Both the position numbers and the translations under genes were made by a program. The notes beneath the pieces are model-generated. The model saw only the letters and a list, made by a program, of their open reading frames with translations, was not told where the DNA came from and did no database searches. 38,293 nucleotides of DNA, taken from the IMG/VR virus record IMGVR_UViG_3300045131_001751, positions 1 through 38,293 of that record, one strand, 5' to 3'. Numbering within the stretch: position 1 is the first letter of the stretch; each line of letters starts with the position of its first letter. The DNA comes from a virus. Positions 3,724 through 35,663 of the stretch are shown piece after piece.

Positions 3724-4170
3724 ATGTGCAAGGTGACGATTCATGAGTTGAAGAAGGCGAAGAAGCCGGTTACGGGCGATAAAGAGGGGCGTCAGTGGAC
3801 GCTGTACATCATGGAGTGTGTGGTGTCGGTCGATGAGAACACCAAGACCGATGTGCGGACGGTGAAGACGTTCGAGCAGGAAATCTTCCAGCAGATCAAT
3901 GCCATGCAGGCCGGTCAGAAGCTGACGTTTGAGGCCGATAAGAAGCCGGACGGTGCGGTTTTTGAGTACACGATTAAAAAGCCCAAAGCTGAATTTAACC
4001 ACAGAGGGCACAAAGGCACAGAGGGGCAGACAAACCGGCAGTGCGTTCTGAAGGTGGCGGTTGAGCTGGAGCGGGCACGGTCTGCGGTGACTGGCGATGT
4101 GCCGACAGCCAAGGACATTATTGCAACTGCAGAAGAGCTGCTGGTGTGGCTGGAAGGGGGTGCTAAATGA
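3724..4170 (+). CDS. Putative OB-like single-stranded-DNA-binding or recombination accessory protein with a duplicated C-terminal module
   Basis: This 148-residue protein has an N-terminal part (1-84) with alternating beta strands (KVTIHELKKAKKPV, RQWTLYIMECVV, KLTFEAD, VFEYTI) that looks like an OB fold. A micro-repeat (3999-4026) encodes the joint NHRGHKGTEG. A C-terminal helical module (about 101-148) begins TNRQ and ends WLEGGAK; a second copy of this module forms the next gene. Similar tails occur in phage proteins near single-strand-binding and annealing functions. The 15-bp leader AACCAAGGAGACGAA gives a strong ribosome-binding site. The DNA-binding role is inferred from fold-like patterns only. 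Confidence 0.55.
   Translation: MCKVTIHELKKAKKPVTGDKEGRQWTLYIMECVVSVDENTKTDVRTVKTFEQEIFQQINAMQAGQKLTFEADKKPDGAVFEYTIKKPKAEFNHRGHKGTEGQTNRQCVLKVAVELERARSAVTGDVPTAKDIIATAEELLVWLEGGAK
4001..4026. repeat. CACAGAGG/CACAAAGG micro-repeat at a domain joint
   Basis: ACAGAGGGCACAAAGGCACA is followed by GAGGGG. The 16-bp core (4007-4022) is identical to 3,224-3,239. It sits exactly between the OB-like part and the TNRQ module of the gene at 3,724. Confidence 0.7.
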
Positions 4171-4403
4171 CAGCGGTCAGTAATCAGGGGGCAGGGGTCA
4201 AGGGGCAGGCATTCGGCGAGACAAACCGGCAGACGGCGCTGAACGCGGCGGTTTCTTGCCTGCATTTCGAACCGCTTAATCCAAAAGGTCATAATGTTCC
4301 AGCAGATCCGGAGCTTTTTACTGATTTGTCAAACAGCGTTGCAGATCAAACGCTGATTTTGGCCGGCAGATTTTTGACGTTTCTGGAAGGCGGTGCCAAA
4401 TGA
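4167..4403 (+). CDS. Stand-alone copy of the TNRQ...FLEGGAK module
   Basis: This 78-residue protein starts by a 4-bp ATGA overlap with the preceding gene. Its N-terminus is encoded by five NNCAGGN-type heptads (4176-4210). The rest (TNRQTALNAAV ... AGRFLTFLEGGAK) is a paralogue of the C-terminus of the preceding gene, with the 14-bp stretch AGACAAACCGGCAG conserved at DNA level. It is probably a helical oligomerisation or protein-interaction module; its function is unknown. The two genes look like the product of a local duplication with repeats at the breakpoints. Confidence 0.6.
   Translation: MTAVSNQGAGVKGQAFGETNRQTALNAAVSCLHFEPLNPKGHNVPADPELFTDLSNSVADQTLILAGRFLTFLEGGAK
4176..4210. repeat. 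Heptad micro-repeat array at the start of a gene
   Basis: The units are GTCAGTA, ATCAGGG, GGCAGGG, GTCAAGG and GGCAGGC, the same NNCAGGN family and the same five-unit length as the array at 3,531. Confidence 0.75.
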
Positions 4404-4873
4404 ATATTCTGAGGCTTAAAGCGGATGGATCCACTGAGCAGCGGATTCTGGATTATCTGAATCAGAATGCTTCTGATGTGCTGGCTGAGAAGATCAACGC
4501 GGGCACAAAGACGCTGGCCGGGGCGGTGAAGTATGCAACAGAGCAGGCGCGTAAGCTGGCCAAGAGCGACGGCTGTGTCTGTGTGGATGACGCGACGGTG
4601 TTCGGGTGGATTATCCACTTCTTCGAAGAGGATGAAATTGCCGAACAGCCGAAGAAGGAAAAGGCCGCAGTCAAACTGCCTGGCGGGGTGAAGGAGAAGG
4701 CCGGGGGGCAGGGGACAGAGGACAGAGGACAGAGGACAGAAGGCAGAGGGCGGAAGACTGATAAGACAGCCAAACCGGCAGAGCCTGCCAAACCTGCTGA
4801 ACCAGCAAAACCGAAAGGCCCGATTATTCTGGAGCTGTTTTCAATGGACCAGATTCAGGCGGTGAAGAAATGA
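4400..4873 (+). CDS. PcfK-like protein
   Basis: The N-terminal part of this 157-residue protein matches the PcfK pattern known from conjugative plasmid pCF10 and many phages: a helical start (RILDYLNQNASDVLAEKIN), a YATEQARKLAKSDGC segment and the signature VDDATVFGWIIHFFEEDEI. A long charged linker follows, part of it encoded by GACAGAG heptads (4707-4748), then PAEPAKPAEPAKP and a short hydrophobic tail (ILELFSMDQIQAV). It overlaps the previous and next genes by 4 bp. Its partner PcfJ follows directly, as in other elements. The molecular role of the pair is not established; a DNA-processing function is often presumed. Confidence 0.75.
   Translation: MNILRLKADGSTEQRILDYLNQNASDVLAEKINAGTKTLAGAVKYATEQARKLAKSDGCVCVDDATVFGWIIHFFEEDEIAEQPKKEKAAVKLPGGVKEKAGGQGTEDRGQRTEGRGRKTDKTAKPAEPAKPAEPAKPKGPIILELFSMDQIQAVKK
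4707..4748. repeat. GACAGAG heptad array inside the pcfK-like gene
   Basis: GGCAGGG is followed by three perfect GACAGAG units, one GACAGAA and GGCAGAG. It is in frame and encodes a Gly/Arg/Glu-rich part of the interdomain linker. Same NNCAG phase as the arrays at 3,531 and 4,176. Confidence 0.8.
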
Positions 4874-6210
4874 GCCACACACTGGTCGAAGTTTTTAAAG
4901 GGCAAGCCCGCTTTGACTATACTCCGATTTCTCCGGCGGCTGTGCGGAGGATTTTGGCTTTTGACCGCGAGAGAGGCTTCGGGCCCGGCGGTACAGAGCC
5001 GAACCGCAACCGGTTTTATCATTGGCTGGTTCAAAACGGTTCCGACGTGCAGATCCGGACGGTGGCGGTGAAGGCGAAGCGGAAAAATAAAGAGCCGCTG
5101 GTCAAGGAAGTGGCGAGGGCCAGTGTGGATGATCCGTGGATTCATGTGCATGACCTCGGATTCTACACGATCGGCGGATATTTCGTGGACTGGTCGCCAG
5201 AGGGGTTCGGATATAATCGAGGATTTAACTATGGACGCCGCTGGGAAACATCCGCCTATGCGCTGCGCTGCATGTGGAAAATCAATGCGACGGTGGTGAA
5301 TCCGGAGCTGCTCAAGCGGACGCGGCGCTTCCGGTGGTCGGCGTGGGACCCGGAGCGGGGGCACCTGCTGGATTATCTAAAAATCTACAAGGAGCATCCG
5401 GAGATCGAGCTGCTTTCTAAAAGCGGGCTTGGCCGGTTCTGCACGAAGATTGCAATTGTCCGTAAGCTGAAAGCAGACAGGAATTTCCGGCAGTTCTTCA
5501 TGAAGCATGTGGACGTTATCCGGGACAGATGGTCAATCAATGCGCCGGTGATTTTGAAGGCATACAGCAAGGGGCTTTCCTTTGGTGATGCCTGCAAGGA
5601 GATTGAAACTCGCCAGATGTTTCGTGGGTGTGATCTTCCGCGCAGCATTTGCCCGGTAAAGGCGTATCGATATATCTGTAAGCACAAGCTTTCTGTCTGT
5701 GTATATACCGATTATCTGCACAACAGCCAGAAGCTGGGGTTTGATCTGGTGGACACGAAGGTTTCGTTTCCGCGGCAATTTAAAGCACGCCAGCAGGCGG
5801 TACAGGATCGGGTGGATGCAATCCGGCGGGCAGAGAATGCTGAGAAGATCGCGGAGATGAACCGGCAGCTTGAGGCGATTGCCGACAAATGGAGCTGGGT
5901 TGAGCGCAAGAGCGGGGATTATCGAGTAGTGGTTCCTCGCACAGAAGAGGCGTTCATTGTCGAAGGCAAGGCGCTGGTCAATTGTCTTGGAGATTACGCG
6001 GCAAAAGTGGCGCGCGGTGAGTGCGTTGTGGTCTTTGTGAGTCAGTCGCGTCGGCCCAATAAGGCGTATGTGGCGGCGTCTTACGATCCGAAGACCGGCG
6101 TGGTTTCTCAGTGCTACGGCAAAAACAACAGCACCCCACCAAAAGAGGTGCGGAAGTTTGTCGAGAGGGTTTTTTCCAAGGCAAAAGTTCAACTCAAGGT
6201 GGCGGCATGA
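4870..6210 (+). CDS. PcfJ-like protein
   Basis: This 446-residue protein carries the PcfJ signature in its C-terminal third: KALVNCLGDYAAKVARGE, then VVFV...PNKAYVAASYDP and VSQCYGKNN. The middle (about 150-330) is helical and contains a coiled-coil-like DRVDAIRRAENAEKIAEMNR stretch. The N-terminal part is unassigned. It is translationally coupled to the PcfK-like gene by an ATGA overlap, and likewise to the next small gene. PcfJ/PcfK pairs are shared by conjugative plasmids and phages; their biochemical activity is not known. The length is typical for the family. Confidence 0.8.
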   Translation: MSHTLVEVFKGQARFDYTPISPAAVRRILAFDRERGFGPGGTEPNRNRFYHWLVQNGSDVQIRTVAVKAKRKNKEPLVKEVARASVDDPWIHVHDLGFYTIGGYFVDWSPEGFGYNRGFNYGRRWETSAYALRCMWKINATVVNPELLKRTRRFRWSAWDPERGHLLDYLKIYKEHPEIELLSKSGLGRFCTKIAIVRKLKADRNFRQFFMKHVDVIRDRWSINAPVILKAYSKGLSFGDACKEIETRQMFRGCDLPRSICPVKAYRYICKHKLSVCVYTDYLHNSQKLGFDLVDTKVSFPRQFKARQQAVQDRVDAIRRAENAEKIAEMNRQLEAIADKWSWVERKSGDYRVVVPRTEEAFIVEGKALVNCLGDYAAKVARGECVVVFVSQSRRPNKAYVAASYDPKTGVVSQCYGKNNSTPPKEVRKFVERVFSKAKVQLKVAA

Positions 6211-6527: not shown

Positions 6528-6541
6528 ACCGAGGGGACGAT

Positions 6542-8880: not shown

Positions 8881-9741
8881 ATGAGCAAGAAATATTGGGT
8901 TGCAGCGGATAAGGTTCAGGCGGCGTGTCGGGCGACGATGGAGCAGTTTCATCCGGAGTTGGCGGCTTTGCATGTGAACGTGTTGTGCGTGTTTGCTAAG
9001 GCGGAAGATAAAAAGGGGTTTCCTTTGCCGGCGGTTAAGCTGCGCGGACGCTCCTGTTACGCGACGATCAGGGCCGTTTCGGACGAGGATCGGGCAGCCG
9101 GGATGCCGGATGCGATAATGACGATTGATGAGGTTTTGTGGAAAACGCTTTCCACCGAGCGTCAGGTGGCGCTGCTGGATCATGAGCTGACGCATATCGA
9201 ATTGGCCGGTGGAGAGTCTTCTGCCGGGGTGAGTCTTGCGATGCGGAAGCATGATTGGGAGCTGGCGGGCTTTTTCGATGTGGTGAAGCGGCACGGGAAG
9301 GACGCGATCGAGCTGGTTGATTTGATTAAGTTTGGCCGGTCGGAGCCGGGTCAGCTGGCGTTTCGGTTTATCGAGGATGGTGAGCCGTCGATTGCCGAGC
9401 GGGCGGCGGAGTCGTTCGTTGGGTCGATTGAGCCGGGCGGGTCGGTTGAGATTTCGACCGGCGGAAAGACGATGCTGAAGATTGAGAAGGGCAAGGACGG
9501 GAGGGTGAAGAGTTTCAGTCCGGCAGAGGGGCAGAGTGATGAGGCGCTGATTAGCCAGGCGCTGGAGGTTCTGCGGGAAACGAAGCGGGCGAGCACGTCC
9601 ATCCTGCAACGGCGGTTGAAGATTGGATACAACCGCGCGGCGGGTCTGATGGATTTGCTGGAAGAGCGCGGGATTGTCGGCCCAGCGACGGTAGTCGGTG
9701 CGCGGGAGATTCTTAAAATGCCGGCGGTGTCGGCGGCTTGA
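8881..9741 (+). CDS. Phage metallopeptidase fused to an FtsK-gamma-like winged helix
   Basis: The N-terminal domain (about 1-150) of this 286-residue protein is of the putative phage metallopeptidase type, with the zinc motif His101-Glu102-Leu-Thr-His105 (LLDHELTHIE) and a likely third ligand at His124-Asp125. A spacer follows (about 160-220). The C-terminal domain (about 222-283) closely follows the FtsK gamma domain: STSILQRRLKIGYNRAAGLM, then DLLEERGIVGP. In FtsK this winged helix reads KOPS sequences and contacts XerD. The fusion suggests a protease brought to DNA, for example to cleave a repressor. AAAAGGAG precedes the ATG. The enzyme motifs are intact. Confidence 0.8.
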   Translation: MSKKYWVAADKVQAACRATMEQFHPELAALHVNVLCVFAKAEDKKGFPLPAVKLRGRSCYATIRAVSDEDRAAGMPDAIMTIDEVLWKTLSTERQVALLDHELTHIELAGGESSAGVSLAMRKHDWELAGFFDVVKRHGKDAIELVDLIKFGRSEPGQLAFRFIEDGEPSIAERAAESFVGSIEPGGSVEISTGGKTMLKIEKGKDGRVKSFSPAEGQSDEALISQALEVLRETKRASTSILQRRLKIGYNRAAGLMDLLEERGIVGPATVVGAREILKMPAVSAA

Positions 9742-9747
9742 GGGGTT

Positions 9748-9765
9748 GGGGGATCGGACGGATGG
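9748..9765. repeat. 9-mer micro-repeat upstream of a small gene
   Basis: GGGGGATCGGACGGATGGGG belongs to the CGGATCGGA family seen at 2,220 and 6,842. It lies between the metallopeptidase stop codon and the next start codon and supplies the G-rich stretch there. Confidence 0.55.
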
Positions 9766-9770
9766 GGCGC

Positions 9771-9956
9771 ATGGACAATGACAGGCCGATTATTTTTGAA
9801 GGTAAGCCGGGGCTTTGCTGGCACTGCGGGCACGGAGAAGTGTCGAGTGTCGAGGGGCAAGTGGCTGGAAAAGGGTGCAATCAGTGGCTGGTGACGCGGC
9901 CGGTGTCGGTGAGTAATTGCCGGGCGTTTTTGAATGTAGACGGGCTTTCCTTATAG
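9771..9956 (+). CDS. Small Cys-containing early protein (61 residues)
   Basis: The likely start is ATG 9771; a TTG at 9738 would add 11 residues encoded by the micro-repeat. CWHCGHG (residues 16-22) plus two later Cys residues could form a zinc site. The stretch EVSSVEGQVAGKG is encoded by TGTCGAG heptads (9841-9854), another micro-repeat inside a coding region. The last residues (SVSNCRAFLNVDG) resemble the ends of other small phage zinc proteins. Function unknown. Confidence 0.5.
   Translation: MDNDRPIIFEGKPGLCWHCGHGEVSSVEGQVAGKGCNQWLVTRPVSVSNCRAFLNVDGLSL
9841..9861. repeat. TGTCGAG heptad repeat in a coding region
   Basis: TGTCGAG is repeated twice and followed by GGGCAAG. It keeps the frame of the small gene at 9,771 open. 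Confidence 0.5.
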
Positions 9957-11506: not shown

Positions 11507-12234
11507 TGAAGCCGTATTACCAGGATGAGGCGGTGACGATTTTCCATGCGGACAGTTACGCGGTTGAGTTGCCGCGCTGTGATTTGCTGTTGATTGATCC
11601 GCCGTATGAAATTTCGACGCGCGGGAGCGGGATTGCGAAACAGCGCGATTATCTGGCGCAGGTCGAAGCCAATGGGATTCACAACGGGTTTGATGAGACG
11701 ATTCTGGAGCGGTTTGCAAACTGGATGTGCTTTTGTTCGCTGGATCAGCTTTCGCTTCTGCTGGTGATGGCGGAGGAACGCAAGGCGCAGGGCGGACGGC
11801 GGATGGTGCTGAACTGGCTGAAGCCTGATCCCGCTCCGCTGTGCAACGGGAATTATTTGCCGGATACGGAGTATTTGGTTCACGCCTTTCAGCCGAAGCG
11901 GCTATTTGGGGCGATGGATGATAAGCATCGCTATTTTCTGCGCCCGGCGATGCGGCAGTGGAATAAGTTCGGGCATCCCACCACAAAGCCGCTGGATTTG
12001 ATGCAGTGGCTGATTCGTCTTGGATCGCAGGATGGCGAGATGGTTCTGGATTGTTTTTGCGGGACGGGCACCACACTGGTGGCGGCCAAGTCGATGGGGA
12101 GGCTGGCTGTCGGGTTTGAGCATAACGAAAAGTGGTGCGAGGTGGCGGCGAAACGCTGTGCGGCGCTTCGCGGACGGAATGAGCAGTTTGGGTTTGATTT
12201 TTCAACGGACAAAACAGAAAGGGTATTGGAATGA
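11503..12234 (+). CDS. DNA N6-adenine/N4-cytosine methyltransferase
   Basis: This 243-residue protein carries the catalytic motif IV DPPY (residues 32-35) and the AdoMet-binding motif I DCFCGTGTT (about 183-191). Motif IV precedes motif I, the beta-class order. HPTTKPLDLMQWLIR just before motif I is typical of the N4/N6 class. The start is ATG 11503 in a 4-bp overlap; a longer frame from 11,455 would overlap the previous gene by 52 nt. There is no restriction partner nearby, so it is an orphan methyltransferase that could protect phage DNA from host restriction or mark it. The recognition site is unknown. Confidence 0.9.
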   Translation: MMKPYYQDEAVTIFHADSYAVELPRCDLLLIDPPYEISTRGSGIAKQRDYLAQVEANGIHNGFDETILERFANWMCFCSLDQLSLLLVMAEERKAQGGRRMVLNWLKPDPAPLCNGNYLPDTEYLVHAFQPKRLFGAMDDKHRYFLRPAMRQWNKFGHPTTKPLDLMQWLIRLGSQDGEMVLDCFCGTGTTLVAAKSMGRLAVGFEHNEKWCEVAAKRCAALRGRNEQFGFDFSTDKTERVLE

Positions 12235-12778: not shown

Positions 12779-12824
12779 GCGCGCGTCCTTATACCGCAAC
12801 TGACAAACCGGACTACTCAGACCG

Positions 12825-13376: not shown

Positions 13377-14748
13377 AATATCGGCAACCCTGAACTATCA
13401 GCGGCTGGTGGATAGCACGTTTCCTGTCTATTCGGGCTGGTTGAATAAGTCGGTTGCGGAGCGTCGTGCCGGATGGAATATTCCAGGGGCTGATTACAGG
13501 GCAACACGCAAGCGGTATGCGGTGCTTGAGGGTTCGTCCGGATCCTCAAAAACGATTTCCATCTTGCAGTATCTGATTTCGTATCAGTTGCTACAGCGCA
13601 AGGTGAAGGTGGACTGTTTCCGTCACGATCAGGCGACGTGTAACGATTCGGTTATTGAGGATTTCCGGTTTGTGATGGGGCCGGATCAGTTCGGGCTGTG
13701 GGATGATAAGTGCTGGAATGAGCAGCGCAAGGAGTACCGGTTTAAAAACGGGGCCATGCTGCGTTTTCGCGGGTGTCAGAAGCCGGGCAAGCTGCACGGT
13801 CCGCGCCGTGATATTGCGTGGCTGAACGAGGTGACGGAAATATCCTACGAAGCGTTCCGGCAGATTAATGCGCGAACCAACGATTTTATTATCATGGACT
13901 TCAATCCCAGCATTTCGGTGCACTGGGTATTTGAGCGGGTATTGAAGCAGGGCGGGGATCGGGTGGATTACTTCCATTCGACGTTCCGGGACAATCCTTT
14001 CATCAGTCCGGAGGCGCGGGCAGATATCATGAGCTGGCGGCCAACGCCTGAAAACATACTGGCCGGCACGGCGGATAAGTGGAGCTGGGAGGTTTACGGG
14101 CTTGGGAAGCGGGCGCGGCGCGAAGGGGCCATCTTCGACAATTGGCTGGTGCTGGAGGATGAACAGTGGCCGAAGGAACTTTACGCGGCGCAGCGTGACG
14201 GTCATTTCGTGGACTTTGGTTTCTCTCAGGATCCTACGGCCGTGGGCCGGGCTTTCCTGCTGAATGATCGGCTGTATGTGCGCGAAGTGGTGTATGAGAC
14301 GGGGCTGATCACCACGGTGAATCAGAGCAATCCGGATAAGCCGTCGCTGGAACTGCGGTTGAGGGAAGCTATCGAGTGCGGGCTGTTTCTTCCGGGTCTG
14401 CTGATGATCGGTGATGCGGCGGCGGCTGAGCAGCTGGCCGACTTGGAAACCAGCGGATTCCGCGTTGAGGCGTGCGAAAAGGGGGCTGGAAGCATCCAGT
14501 ACGGGATCAGTCTGCTGAAGCAATTCACGATCTACGTCCACCGCGACAGCAACAATTTTCAGGCTGAGTTTGAGAACTACGCATGGAAGAAGCAGCCGGA
14601 CGGTAAGTTTTCCGATGAGCCGGAGGATAAGTTCAACCATCTGATTGACGGGTTGAGGTATTGGGCGAGGCGGAACGTGAAGCCGAGGGCTTTGAATGCA
14701 GGGCGGCGGGTGAGCAGTCGGGTGGTTAAAAAATTGAGGAGATACTAA
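13369..14748 (+). CDS. Terminase large subunit
   Basis: This is the packaging ATPase/nuclease. The start is ATG 13369, 6 nt after GGAGG; a GTG at 13,354 in the same frame is less likely. In the 459-residue protein the Walker A motif is GSSGSSKT (55-62), Walker B is DIAWLNE (148-154), and the RNase H-like nuclease has Asp282 (VDFGFSQDPT), Asp349 (MIGDAA) and Asp427 (FNHLIDGLRYW). The pattern resembles PBSX-type (Terminase_3) large subunits. All catalytic residues are present. It packages DNA into the procapsid through the portal encoded downstream. Confidence 0.95.
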   Translation: MREISATLNYQRLVDSTFPVYSGWLNKSVAERRAGWNIPGADYRATRKRYAVLEGSSGSSKTISILQYLISYQLLQRKVKVDCFRHDQATCNDSVIEDFRFVMGPDQFGLWDDKCWNEQRKEYRFKNGAMLRFRGCQKPGKLHGPRRDIAWLNEVTEISYEAFRQINARTNDFIIMDFNPSISVHWVFERVLKQGGDRVDYFHSTFRDNPFISPEARADIMSWRPTPENILAGTADKWSWEVYGLGKRARREGAIFDNWLVLEDEQWPKELYAAQRDGHFVDFGFSQDPTAVGRAFLLNDRLYVREVVYETGLITTVNQSNPDKPSLELRLREAIECGLFLPGLLMIGDAAAAEQLADLETSGFRVEACEKGAGSIQYGISLLKQFTIYVHRDSNNFQAEFENYAWKKQPDGKFSDEPEDKFNHLIDGLRYWARRNVKPRALNAGRRVSSRVVKKLRRY

Positions 14749-15161
14749 TGCAGATAATTTATTGCGATTGGCTAAAGGTGCAGATTGCCGTGTTTAGAAA
14801 TCGCGCTGAATGCATCCGGATTCTTGCAGAAACTGAAGATTTTATAGAGCCAAACACAAATGGGATGGCCGGATATTCGTCGGCAAAGACCGGCTTGCCG
14901 ATGTTTTTTATTTATTTGCATAAGCCCGGGAAATCAGATCCGACAATGAGCGGGCTGATTGTGCATGAGGTGTCGCATCTGGTTGATATTTTGCTGAATA
15001 AAAAAGGCATCGAAACGGCATCGGTAAATACTGAAGTTCGCGGGCACATGAATGAGTGGCTTTTCAATGAAGTGAGCTGGCTTGTTAGGTCTGGAAGTGA
15101 AAGAAAACGGCGAAAAATGAAAGAAACAGGCGGATTATGCAAAAACAGGGGGAAAAAATGA
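14748..15161 (+). CDS. Small HExxH protein next to the terminase
   Basis: This 137-residue protein contains His73-Glu-Val-Ser-His77 within GLIVHEVSHLVDILL, followed by NTEVRGHMNEWLFNEV, where the Glu could be the third zinc ligand. Small HExxH proteins of this shape are common beside phage terminase and portal genes; their substrate is unknown. It begins in a TAATG overlap with the terminase. It lacks any peptidoglycan-hydrolase signature, so it is not called an endolysin. The C-terminus is strongly basic. Confidence 0.65.
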   Translation: MQIIYCDWLKVQIAVFRNRAECIRILAETEDFIEPNTNGMAGYSSAKTGLPMFFIYLHKPGKSDPTMSGLIVHEVSHLVDILLNKKGIETASVNTEVRGHMNEWLFNEVSWLVRSGSERKRRKMKETGGLCKNRGKK

Positions 15162-15733
15162 AATCTGAATCAGTATTTATTCACCTGCAACCGACGGCGA
15201 ACGAGTTGCGCCAGGCGTTTATGGAGCAGGTTGAGGCCGGTACGATCAAGCATCTGCCTGAATGGTTGCGGACGCTTCCGGGCTGGATGCGCTATTTAAA
15301 CCCGAAGCCGAAAGCTCCGCGCGCGATCGCGTTTTGTCCGGTGGTGATTGAGGTGGAGGGGAGATATCCGGCGGTGATTTACCTGACGAACTGGCGCGAA
15401 TGCGGGAAAAGCGTGCAGGTACATTTTGCGGCACATGCTCAGTACCGTCCAAAGACCGTGTTTTCTGCGGCCAAGCTGGCTTTGGACATGATTTTGAACA
15501 GCAAGGAAGTGGCTCTGCTGGAGGTTTGCTGTGAGGGAAACAATCAGGTTGCCGAGAAAATGGCACGGTCGATGGGGTTTTCTGAGGTGGCTCGGGTTGG
15601 TGGGTGCGTATATAGCCTGAAAACAAACAAAGGGACTATTTATGGCCAAGCCAAAAGCACAAAAAGCAGAAACCCCTCAAAAGGCGGCTGCTCCTGTCAC
15701 TCCGGAGAATGCCGAAGTTCAGGCTGCCGGTGA
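15158..15733 (+). CDS. GNAT-like virion or assembly protein
   Basis: The likely start is ATG 15158 after a G-rich site; an in-frame ATG at 15,137 adds 7 residues. The 191-residue protein has a beta-alpha pattern (YPAVIYLTNWRECGKSVQVH, KTVFSAAKLALDMIL, VALLEVCCEGNNQVAEKMAR) that fits the acetyltransferase-like proteins found near head genes of T7-like phages. The final approx. 30 residues overlap the next gene by 92 nt in another frame and look less protein-like. The enzyme function is unproven; several T7-like virion proteins of this fold may be structural. Confidence 0.6.
   Translation: MKSESVFIHLQPTANELRQAFMEQVEAGTIKHLPEWLRTLPGWMRYLNPKPKAPRAIAFCPVVIEVEGRYPAVIYLTNWRECGKSVQVHFAAHAQYRPKTVFSAAKLALDMILNSKEVALLEVCCEGNNQVAEKMARSMGFSEVARVGGCVYSLKTNKGTIYGQAKSTKSRNPSKGGCSCHSGECRSSGCR
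15605..15615 (+). promoter_or_regulatory. Possible weak copy of the late promoter motif
   Basis: TGCGTATATAG shares 11 bases with the repeated motif at 19,169 and 35,647. It lies 26 bp upstream of the gene at 15,642, a spacing similar to that at the fibre operon. It is inside coding sequence, so chance is possible. Confidence 0.35.
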
Positions 15734-15883: not shown

Positions 15884-17548
15884 ATGAAAAATATGGCAAA
15901 AACTATTGCAGAGAAGATTCTCCGGACGCGCGATACGCTGAAAGGCCAGCGGGCAACGTACAAAAACGTGTGTGATGAAGCGTGCCGGCTGTTTAATCCG
16001 GAACTGGAGGATCTGCTGGAAGCTCCGGCTGGTTCTGAGATTCTTCAGCCGATTATTTCAACGGGCATTCTGGCGCAGGAGCGGATGGTTTCAGGTCTGT
16101 TTTCCAACACCATGAGCATGGGCCGCGGGAACATCATCGATCAGGACCAGAAGAAGATGAAACAGTCCGAGATGGCGCGGTTTTATACGGCGCTCAGCAA
16201 GGCAACGCACCGGCGGATTCAGCAAAGCCCGTTTCCTGAAGCATACAACGAGATGCTGTCCGGCTTTGGTGTGCGTGGTGAAGGGGTGTTTTATGTCGAT
16301 TTTAACGAGAAAACCGCTCAGCACGAGTTTCTGGTGTATCCCAGCACAAAGGTTTTTCCGGTTCGCAATGCGCGCGCGGAGTTGATTGAGGTTTACCGCG
16401 AATATGAACTGACGGCCGTTGAGGCGGTTGATGAGTTCGGGCTGGAGGAAGTTCCGCCGGTGATCCAGACGGCCTACAAAAACGAAAAGCACGAAGAGAA
16501 ATTCAAGTTTGTGCATGTTTTACGTCGGCGCAAAGAGCGCAACGGCAAGCGGCTGGACAGCAAAAACATGCCGTATGAAAGCATCCACGTTGAAGAGTCT
16601 ACCCGGACAAAGGTTAAAGAGTCCGGAACGAAGCGGATGCGGTATCTGGTGCCGCGCTTTTATGTGCGCGACGGGGAGCCGTTCGGGCGATCTCCGGCCA
16701 TGAAGGCTCTGCCTGTGGCTCGGACGCTGATGAAGGTTGTCTCGGATCACATGGACGGGGTTGAGCTGGGGATTGCTCCGCCAATTTTCCTGCCGGATCG
16801 GGACGCGGTAGAGTCTGCGGTACTGGAAGCGTTCGGGGTGAACTACTGCGACACCAGCAAGGGGCAGATTTTCACGTACACCGGAAACGGCAATCTGCAA
16901 CTGAGTGCGGATTTCATCACCTGGCTTACGGATGAGTTGAATAAACTGCATTACGTGGATCTGTTCACGATGCTGGAGCAGATTAAAAACAGCGCCAAGA
17001 CGGCGTTTGAGATTTCCCAGCTGATCGCGGAACGGATACAGGCAATCAGTCCGGTAATCAACCGGCTTGGGAATGGGTTCTTTTCGCCGCTGTACGAGCT
17101 GGTTGCGGAAGACATTCTTGAATATGACCTGCTCGGTGAAGAGGTTCCGGCGGCTCTGGCCGGCAGTGAGTTCTCCGTGCAGTACACCAGTCGGCTCGAT
17201 GTGCAGCTGGCTGATCTGGAGATTTCCAGTCTGGCGCAGGCGGTTATGCAGGCGGCTGAGCTGATCGCGGCCATCAAACAGAATCCCTGGCTGGATGCGG
17301 TTGTTAAGACCTACGAAACGATCAAAAAGATTTTCGCGGCCAAAAACGTGGATGTGGAGCTGTTGTTTACTGAGCAGCAGTTCAAAGAAAACATCAAAAA
17401 ATATATGGACGCGCAGGCGGCAACCCAGCAGCAGGAGCAGCTCGGCGGCATGGTGCGTCCGATTGATGCGCAGCGGGCACCGGAAGAGGGCAGTCCGCTT
17501 GAAGCCGGGGTGGCGGCAATGGAAAGCGCCCAAGGGGTGGCGATCTAA
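15884..17548 (+). CDS. Portal (head-tail connector) protein, T7-like
   Basis: This 554-residue protein has the Head-tail_con features of podovirus portals: KIAEKI...LKGQRATYKNVCDEA at the start, TGILAQERMVSGLFSNTMSMG, PFPEAYNEMLSGFGVRGEGV, the ...YELTAVEAVDEFG segment, FGRSPAMKALPVARTLMKVV and the C-terminal SPVINRLGNGFF...DILEYDL part. It forms the dodecameric ring through which DNA is packaged and ejected. An in-frame ATG at 15,893 is an alternative start. The gene order terminase, portal, scaffold, capsid, tail proteins matches T7-like phages. Confidence 0.9.
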   Translation: MKNMAKTIAEKILRTRDTLKGQRATYKNVCDEACRLFNPELEDLLEAPAGSEILQPIISTGILAQERMVSGLFSNTMSMGRGNIIDQDQKKMKQSEMARFYTALSKATHRRIQQSPFPEAYNEMLSGFGVRGEGVFYVDFNEKTAQHEFLVYPSTKVFPVRNARAELIEVYREYELTAVEAVDEFGLEEVPPVIQTAYKNEKHEEKFKFVHVLRRRKERNGKRLDSKNMPYESIHVEESTRTKVKESGTKRMRYLVPRFYVRDGEPFGRSPAMKALPVARTLMKVVSDHMDGVELGIAPPIFLPDRDAVESAVLEAFGVNYCDTSKGQIFTYTGNGNLQLSADFITWLTDELNKLHYVDLFTMLEQIKNSAKTAFEISQLIAERIQAISPVINRLGNGFFSPLYELVAEDILEYDLLGEEVPAALAGSEFSVQYTSRLDVQLADLEISSLAQAVMQAAELIAAIKQNPWLDAVVKTYETIKKIFAAKNVDVELLFTEQQFKENIKKYMDAQAATQQQEQLGGMVRPIDAQRAPEEGSPLEAGVAAMESAQGVAI

Positions 17549-19168: not shown

Positions 19169-19185
19169 CTGGATGCGTATATAGG
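19169..19185 (+). promoter_or_regulatory. Late promoter-like element 1 (upstream of capsid gene)
   Basis: CTGGATGCGTATATAGG occurs exactly twice, here and at 35,647. Both copies lie just after a stop codon and before a new operon. It has a TATATA core suited to a -10 element and no -35 box, as in T4 late promoters. This is inference; no transcript data exist. Confidence 0.6.
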
Positions 19186-35646: not shown

Positions 35647-35663
35647 CTGGATGCGTATATAGG
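35647..35663 (+). promoter_or_regulatory. Late promoter-like element 2 (upstream of fibre operon)
   Basis: This is the second exact copy of CTGGATGCGTATATAGG. It lies 6 bp after the stop codon of the giant gene and 30 bp before the next ATG. CGGAA/TTCCG (35664-35668/35686-35690) may pair around the AAGGAG ribosome-binding site of the next gene. Confidence 0.6.

Follow-up and report, generated by a model that had tools for sequence, protein, structure and literature searches.

The window analysed here is the whole of the IMG/VR record IMGVR_UViG_3300045131_001751, 38,293 bases, with a direct repeat of 127 bases at both ends, as in a closed genome. The locus of interest encodes a protein in which an OB-like domain is joined by a linker to a helical-hairpin module, then a second copy of the module as a gene of its own, then PcfK- and PcfJ-like proteins, with short tandem arrays (micro-repeats) in and beyond these genes:

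3724..4170, + strand: gene for an OB-like (SSB-like) domain, linker and helical-hairpin module (copy 1); homologues in 8 further records, an AlphaFold2 model and weak Foldseek SSB matches
3988..4029, + strand: linker of copy 1 with the CACAGAGGGCACAAAGGCACAGAGG micro-repeat (about 3999-4026; scan call at 4003-4032)
4030..4167, + strand: module copy 1 (TNRQ...LEGGAK), with 89% amino acid identity to G007 (upstream domain, 50%)
4150..4170, + strand: 3' boundary CTGGAAGGGGGTGCTAAATGA of copy 1, comprising the module end, a ribosome-binding-like stretch and an ATGA stop/start overlap
4167..4403, + strand: stand-alone module copy 2 gene, which groups with G004 and is interpreted as an OB-module gene of G004 type that was beheaded
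4175..4209, + strand: GGTCAGT-AATCAGG-GGGCAGG-GGTCAAG-GGGCAGG, a heptamer-like stretch ahead of copy 2 and in part ancestral linker (call at 4177-4211, lenient threshold only)
4221..4400, + strand: module copy 2, a profile hit, modelled with two helices
4383..4403, + strand: copy-2 3' boundary CTGGAAGGCGGTGCCAAATGA, which overlaps the start of PcfK
4400..4873, + strand: PcfK-like protein (Pfam PF14058, E=2.6e-11)
4698..4756, + strand: CAGAGGA heptamer array in the PcfK linker, an in-frame insertion relative to G002 and G007
4870..6210, + strand: PcfJ-like protein (Pfam PF14284, E=4e-26), its C-terminal part near-identical to G004 by sliding identity
6482..6524, + strand: GTGTGTGGG-type micro-repeat; window/G001 similarity restarts 8-10 nt beyond its end, at 6532
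9748..9776, + strand: GGATCGGACGGATGGGGC micro-repeat, one copy in the window; copies flank ~720 extra bp in G001

The PcfK profile scored 44.2 bits (Pfam gathering score 27) and the PcfJ profile 92 bits (gathering score 25), and both proteins occur in Listeria and Streptococcus phages too. In those phages, homologues of the PcfK-like protein (4400-4873) carry the annotation of AcrIIA9-family Cas9 inhibitor. Elsewhere in the window, the gene at 8881-9741 encodes a putative phage metallopeptidase domain with a C-terminal FtsK-gamma-like DNA-binding domain. Three + strand copies of the motif TGG[AG]TGCGTATATAG (15601-15615, 19170-19184 and 35648-35662) are present vs 0.03 expected; the sites lie near gene starts of the structural region and are candidates for a late promoter or regulatory site.

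Searches of viral contigs recovered the OB-module gene from G001, G002, G003, G004 (with its near-twin G005), G007, G008 and G009, i.e., from seven records, or eight with the near-identical pair G004/G005; from G006 they recovered PcfK/PcfJ alone. G001 is the closest relative, at about 92-99% identity in shared blocks. The order SSB-like domain, linker, module is the same in all homologues found. A profile of the OB-module protein found no relative in 85,000 species (cellular) genomes, and two queries against known phages and one against plasmids produced nothing convincing; neither a back-translated module pattern run against viral contigs nor single-query searches with copy 2 and with PcfJ gave matches. 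In the AlphaFold2 model of the 3724-4170 protein, built from eight sequences (mean pLDDT 78, pTM 0.50), a beta domain is predicted at residues 1-84 and helices at 104-123 and 129-145. Linker residues 89-100 have pLDDT<50, a prediction of disorder, and are the residues encoded by the CACAGAGG repeat. The best Foldseek matches are mostly single-stranded-DNA-binding proteins (best E 3.7e-3, with high probability and low TM), and the protein did not match a recognised SSB/OB family profile, Pfam giving no hit and PHROGs weak ones with E at least 0.02. The weak Foldseek matches are suggestive only of an SSB-like, OB-fold beta domain, for which ssDNA binding would be the presumed function.

The sequence-only reading had seen the TNRQ…LEGGAK module as both the C-terminus of the gene at 3724 and the body of the gene at 4167, and the homology was confirmed. 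Copy 1 comprises residues 103-148 of a 148-aa protein and copy 2 residues 19-78 of a 78-aa protein; their alignment has z = 7.4, and 0 of 1000 shuffles scored as high. Both were also found in the window, with E = 6.6e-29 and 6.9e-23, by a module profile whose underlying alignment already contained them. Two strong matches to this profile occur in the window only among 10 records, and a second match in G003 is marginal (E = 0.011; L025; G003 40509-40610, - strand). Two helices, at residues 20-33 and 58-73, are predicted for copy 2 in a low-confidence model (mean pLDDT 64.5). The copies share only 41% protein identity, so the pair is not a fresh duplication.

An older local tandem duplication would have produced copy 2 from copy 1 in the same lineage, with subsequent loss of the OB domain and divergence. 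The copies are indeed adjacent, their AGACAAACCGGCAG start is identical, and their 21-base 3' boundary, CTGGAAGGnGGTGCnAAATGA, is near-identical, as it also is in G001, G002 and G007, with differing genes downstream. But in the module trees, which draw on about 46 aligned residues, copy 2 grouped with G004 (UFBoot 89), and its placement as sister of copy 1 was rejected (AU p=0.005), as was that as sister of copy 1 plus G001 (0.007); a placement within the (copy 1, G001, G007) clade was not rejected (AU p=0.10). Further, the copy-2 linker resembles those of G004 and G007 and not that of copy 1, and G001, whose module is 98% identical to copy 1, lacks a second copy. We consider tandem duplication very unlikely. 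As an origin for copy 2 it is rejected by the tree, in which the copies are not mutual closest relatives.

Several features of the right side of the locus point to G004. The whole-protein score of copy 2 was 80.5 vs G004 and 37 vs copy 1, and G004 is the closest relative at the DNA level for the N-terminal half of PcfK (up to 4693) and for the end of PcfJ; N-terminal PcfJ showed no clear preference for G004 over G007. The G004 module is only 50% identical to copy 2, and the exact donor was not found among the relatives searched. On the left side, similarity between the window and G001 ends exactly at the 3' boundary CTGGAAGGGGGTGCTAAATGA of copy 1, which puts the mosaic edge at its stop codon (4170), only a few nt from the repeat that precedes copy 2. 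G001 shares this ATGA end and continues from there into a different cassette. We think it likely that the region is a mosaic join of a G001-like left arm and a G004-like right arm, whose joints are not defined by the micro-repeats.

The join could instead be a chimera of two co-occurring phages made in metagenome assembly, as it is known from a single record and an assembler could be misled by the 3' boundary that the copies share. On the other side, the reading frames are intact at the junction, with a clean ATGA overlap, and the 127-bp end repeat is like that of a closed genome, and we regard a chimera as highly improbable. If the mosaic join is taken as real, the left arm, up to the copy-1 stop codon, would be G001-like and would supply the SSB-like OB domain and a two-helix module joined by a disordered linker, and the right arm, with copy 2, the N-terminal part of PcfK and C-terminal PcfJ, would be G004-like. 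A single crossover may have fallen in the linker of an OB-module gene of G004 type, dropping the OB domain of that gene and leaving linker plus module as a short gene. Since the ATGA start of copy 2 overlaps the copy-1 stop, copy 2 is probably translated by coupling.

Domain exchange is also evident within the gene at 3724. Between the window and G007 the module is 89% identical in protein and the OB domain 50%, and similarity climbs at the first module codon. Tested on the OB data, the module tree is rejected (AU p = 0.0002 for DNA, 0.001 for protein); tested on the module data, the OB tree is disfavoured (AU p = 0.055 and 0.03). Neighbouring segments have conflicting relatives and sharp similarity edges in the domain trees and the blastn map, as in a mosaic (recombinant) phage locus, and these results support domain swapping across the linker.

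Micro-repeats were sought by self-match at lags of 6-10 with a random-sequence control; several thresholds were tried, and a lenient and a strict one are given. The lag scan was adopted because lenient Tandem Repeats Finder settings (at score 38, 38 calls vs 14.2 expected) and a shared-14-mer definition were too noisy. At the lenient threshold the window gave 31 calls vs 6.8 expected, including 4003-4032, 4177-4211 and 4696-4761. At the next threshold it gave 15 vs 1.0 expected, and of the three arrays only that of PcfK (4698-4756) was kept. The sequence-only reading had placed micro-repeats of two families immediately before the module copies, and another between the domains of the PcfK-like protein. 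All three were found, a CACAGAGG-type array ahead of copy 1 and a GGTCAGG-type array ahead of copy 2, both as lenient-threshold calls only, and a third in the PcfK linker that passes the next threshold. The two arrays beside the module copies are probably real and individually modest. Part of the copy-2 array coincides with ancestral linker: it reads SNQGAGVKGQAFGETNRQ, which can be aligned to KKQGSGFRAQASGETNRQ in G004 and KAQGSFKGQALGPTNRQ in G007, and in neither relative was an array called directly ahead of the module. An exact search for the micro-repeats in 85,000 species genomes gave zero matches and hence no link to a host; the repeat-related literature searched yielded no description of the CACAGAGG family. 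Repeats like CACAGAGG occur in environmental bacteria. A separate heptamer array (AGATCAGAGGCCGGAGATCAGAGGTCAGA) lies at 4860-4905 of L012, within an apparent HD-domain gene; G001 has a comparable gene in which another repeat-like stretch occupies roughly the same position.

The micro-repeats had been proposed to act as recombination seams that shuffle domains. Short homology between repeat copies in co-infecting or resident phages would then direct crossovers that shuffle domains and cassettes. The relatives speak against this at the joints themselves. The copy-1 linker repeat is identical in the window and G001, and the fusion is present without the CACAGAGG repeat in G002, G003, G004, G007, G008 and G009, six of the seven relatives; the G008 linker has a different, GGCAAGA-type heptamer, and in G003 a GTGTCGG array lies inside the module. 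Similarly, the PcfK N-terminal domain is conserved and the C-terminal end similar, without the CAGAGGA array, in G002, G004, G006, G007 and G009. A KGPI..ELFS-like PcfK C-terminal end is found in most relatives, the G004 PcfK linker has a different low-complexity stretch, and among the compared relatives the CAGAGGA array in this linker is confined to the window. Because the same fusion and PcfK domains occur in relatives without the arrays, the fused joint and the PcfK linker are older than the repeats. The order of events that would undo the proposal, a module joint older than repeats that are absent or elsewhere in relatives, is thus largely what was found for the fused joint and PcfK. Seven relatives have the same fusion, and two strong module matches are seen only in the window. 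As for breakpoints within repeats, the 4170 edge lies close to the start of the copy-2 repeat, but G007, the partner in the module swap, lacks the window's CACAGAGG repeat in its linker, so that the repeat was not at the breakpoint on both parents.

Some support for seams comes from other sites. In G001 (L021), ~720 bp are flanked by direct GGACGGATTGGACG-type copies at 12044-12078 and 12788-12817, where the window has a single copy (9748-9776), and the lag scan calls the two G001 copies; at this site, 9753-9776, the repeat is carried on both sides, by the window and by G001. At 17151-17179 of G001 (L021) there is a GTCAGGGGTCA array exactly where the window has a gene for 137 aa, 14748-15161, that G001 lacks. 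In G001 this array apparently encodes the N-terminal end of the gene that follows. The comparison of the window with G001 gave 22 block edges, which are non-independent and include end-of-record edges. In G001, 5/22 had a strict repeat within 30 nt vs 0.57 expected from circular shifts (7/5000 as high), but in the window this was so for only 1/22 vs 0.80 expected. With the lenient threshold the counts were 5 vs 1.45 expected (110/5000) for G001 and 2 vs 1.68 for the window. In the early region, 1/16 mosaic edges in the window and 5/16 in G001 were near strict repeats, vs 9.5% and 13.6%, respectively, of gene boundaries; the pooled excess of edges over gene boundaries is small, and at P about 0.15, an estimate rather than a tool computation, is not convincing. 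The 5/22 edges of G001 leave room for participation of the repeats. On balance, domain exchange itself stood, as the conflicting trees attest, and the repeats as its seam were not supported, given the joints without repeats. We consider the proposal that repeats are seams unlikely, and also quite unlikely the broader idea that dispersed arrays common to the phage family, in frame where they lie in linkers, are portable short homology for gain, loss and swapping of genes and C-terminal modules.

Under the mosaic-join reading, the micro-repeats would be short dispersed sequences that persist in linkers, loops and gene ends, probably because the proteins tolerate them there, and that were gained independently in different phages. 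They look mostly like harmless filler tolerated in flexible linkers and not a proven cause of splicing. In sum, the locus may be explained by ordinary phage mosaicism plus linker-tolerated repeats, with repeat-guided shuffling possible. What looks like a domain duplication can be the trace of a crossover between two phage lineages, with a beheaded, possibly translated gene left behind, and short repeats at domain joints need not cause the joints. If exchange in this family of phages is indeed guided by repeats, it would become possible to predict breakpoints.

Shuffling of phage protein domains is established, with core replication proteins among the mosaic classes given in PMC10684548, as is relaxed-homology (homeologous) recombination (PMC2327257). 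The present locus is similar to the tailed-phage mosaicism of both papers, with domains and cassettes exchanged between diverged phages. Unlike those examples, a crossover in a linker here seems to have left a stand-alone C-terminal module gene; the agent recombinase was not identified. The arrays resemble the G-rich heptameric repeats of Xanthomonas and Nostoc in being dispersed, short and G-rich with variable unit number; the latter are mostly intergenic and under-represented in coding regions (PMC4692102), whereas several arrays here are in frame within small phage genes, and the sequence families differ. The predicted beta domain of the OB-module protein weakly matches SSB structures and, in BFVD, similarly long phage proteins, which hints at a likeness to bacterial and phage SSB proteins, but it differs in having no Pfam match and weak PHROGs matches, and in ending with a helical hairpin rather than the usual acidic SSB tail. 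Finally, the PcfK- and PcfJ-like genes are like the pair of conjugative elements and phages in their adjacency and Pfam matches, and unlike known pairs in carrying a heptamer array in the PcfK linker.
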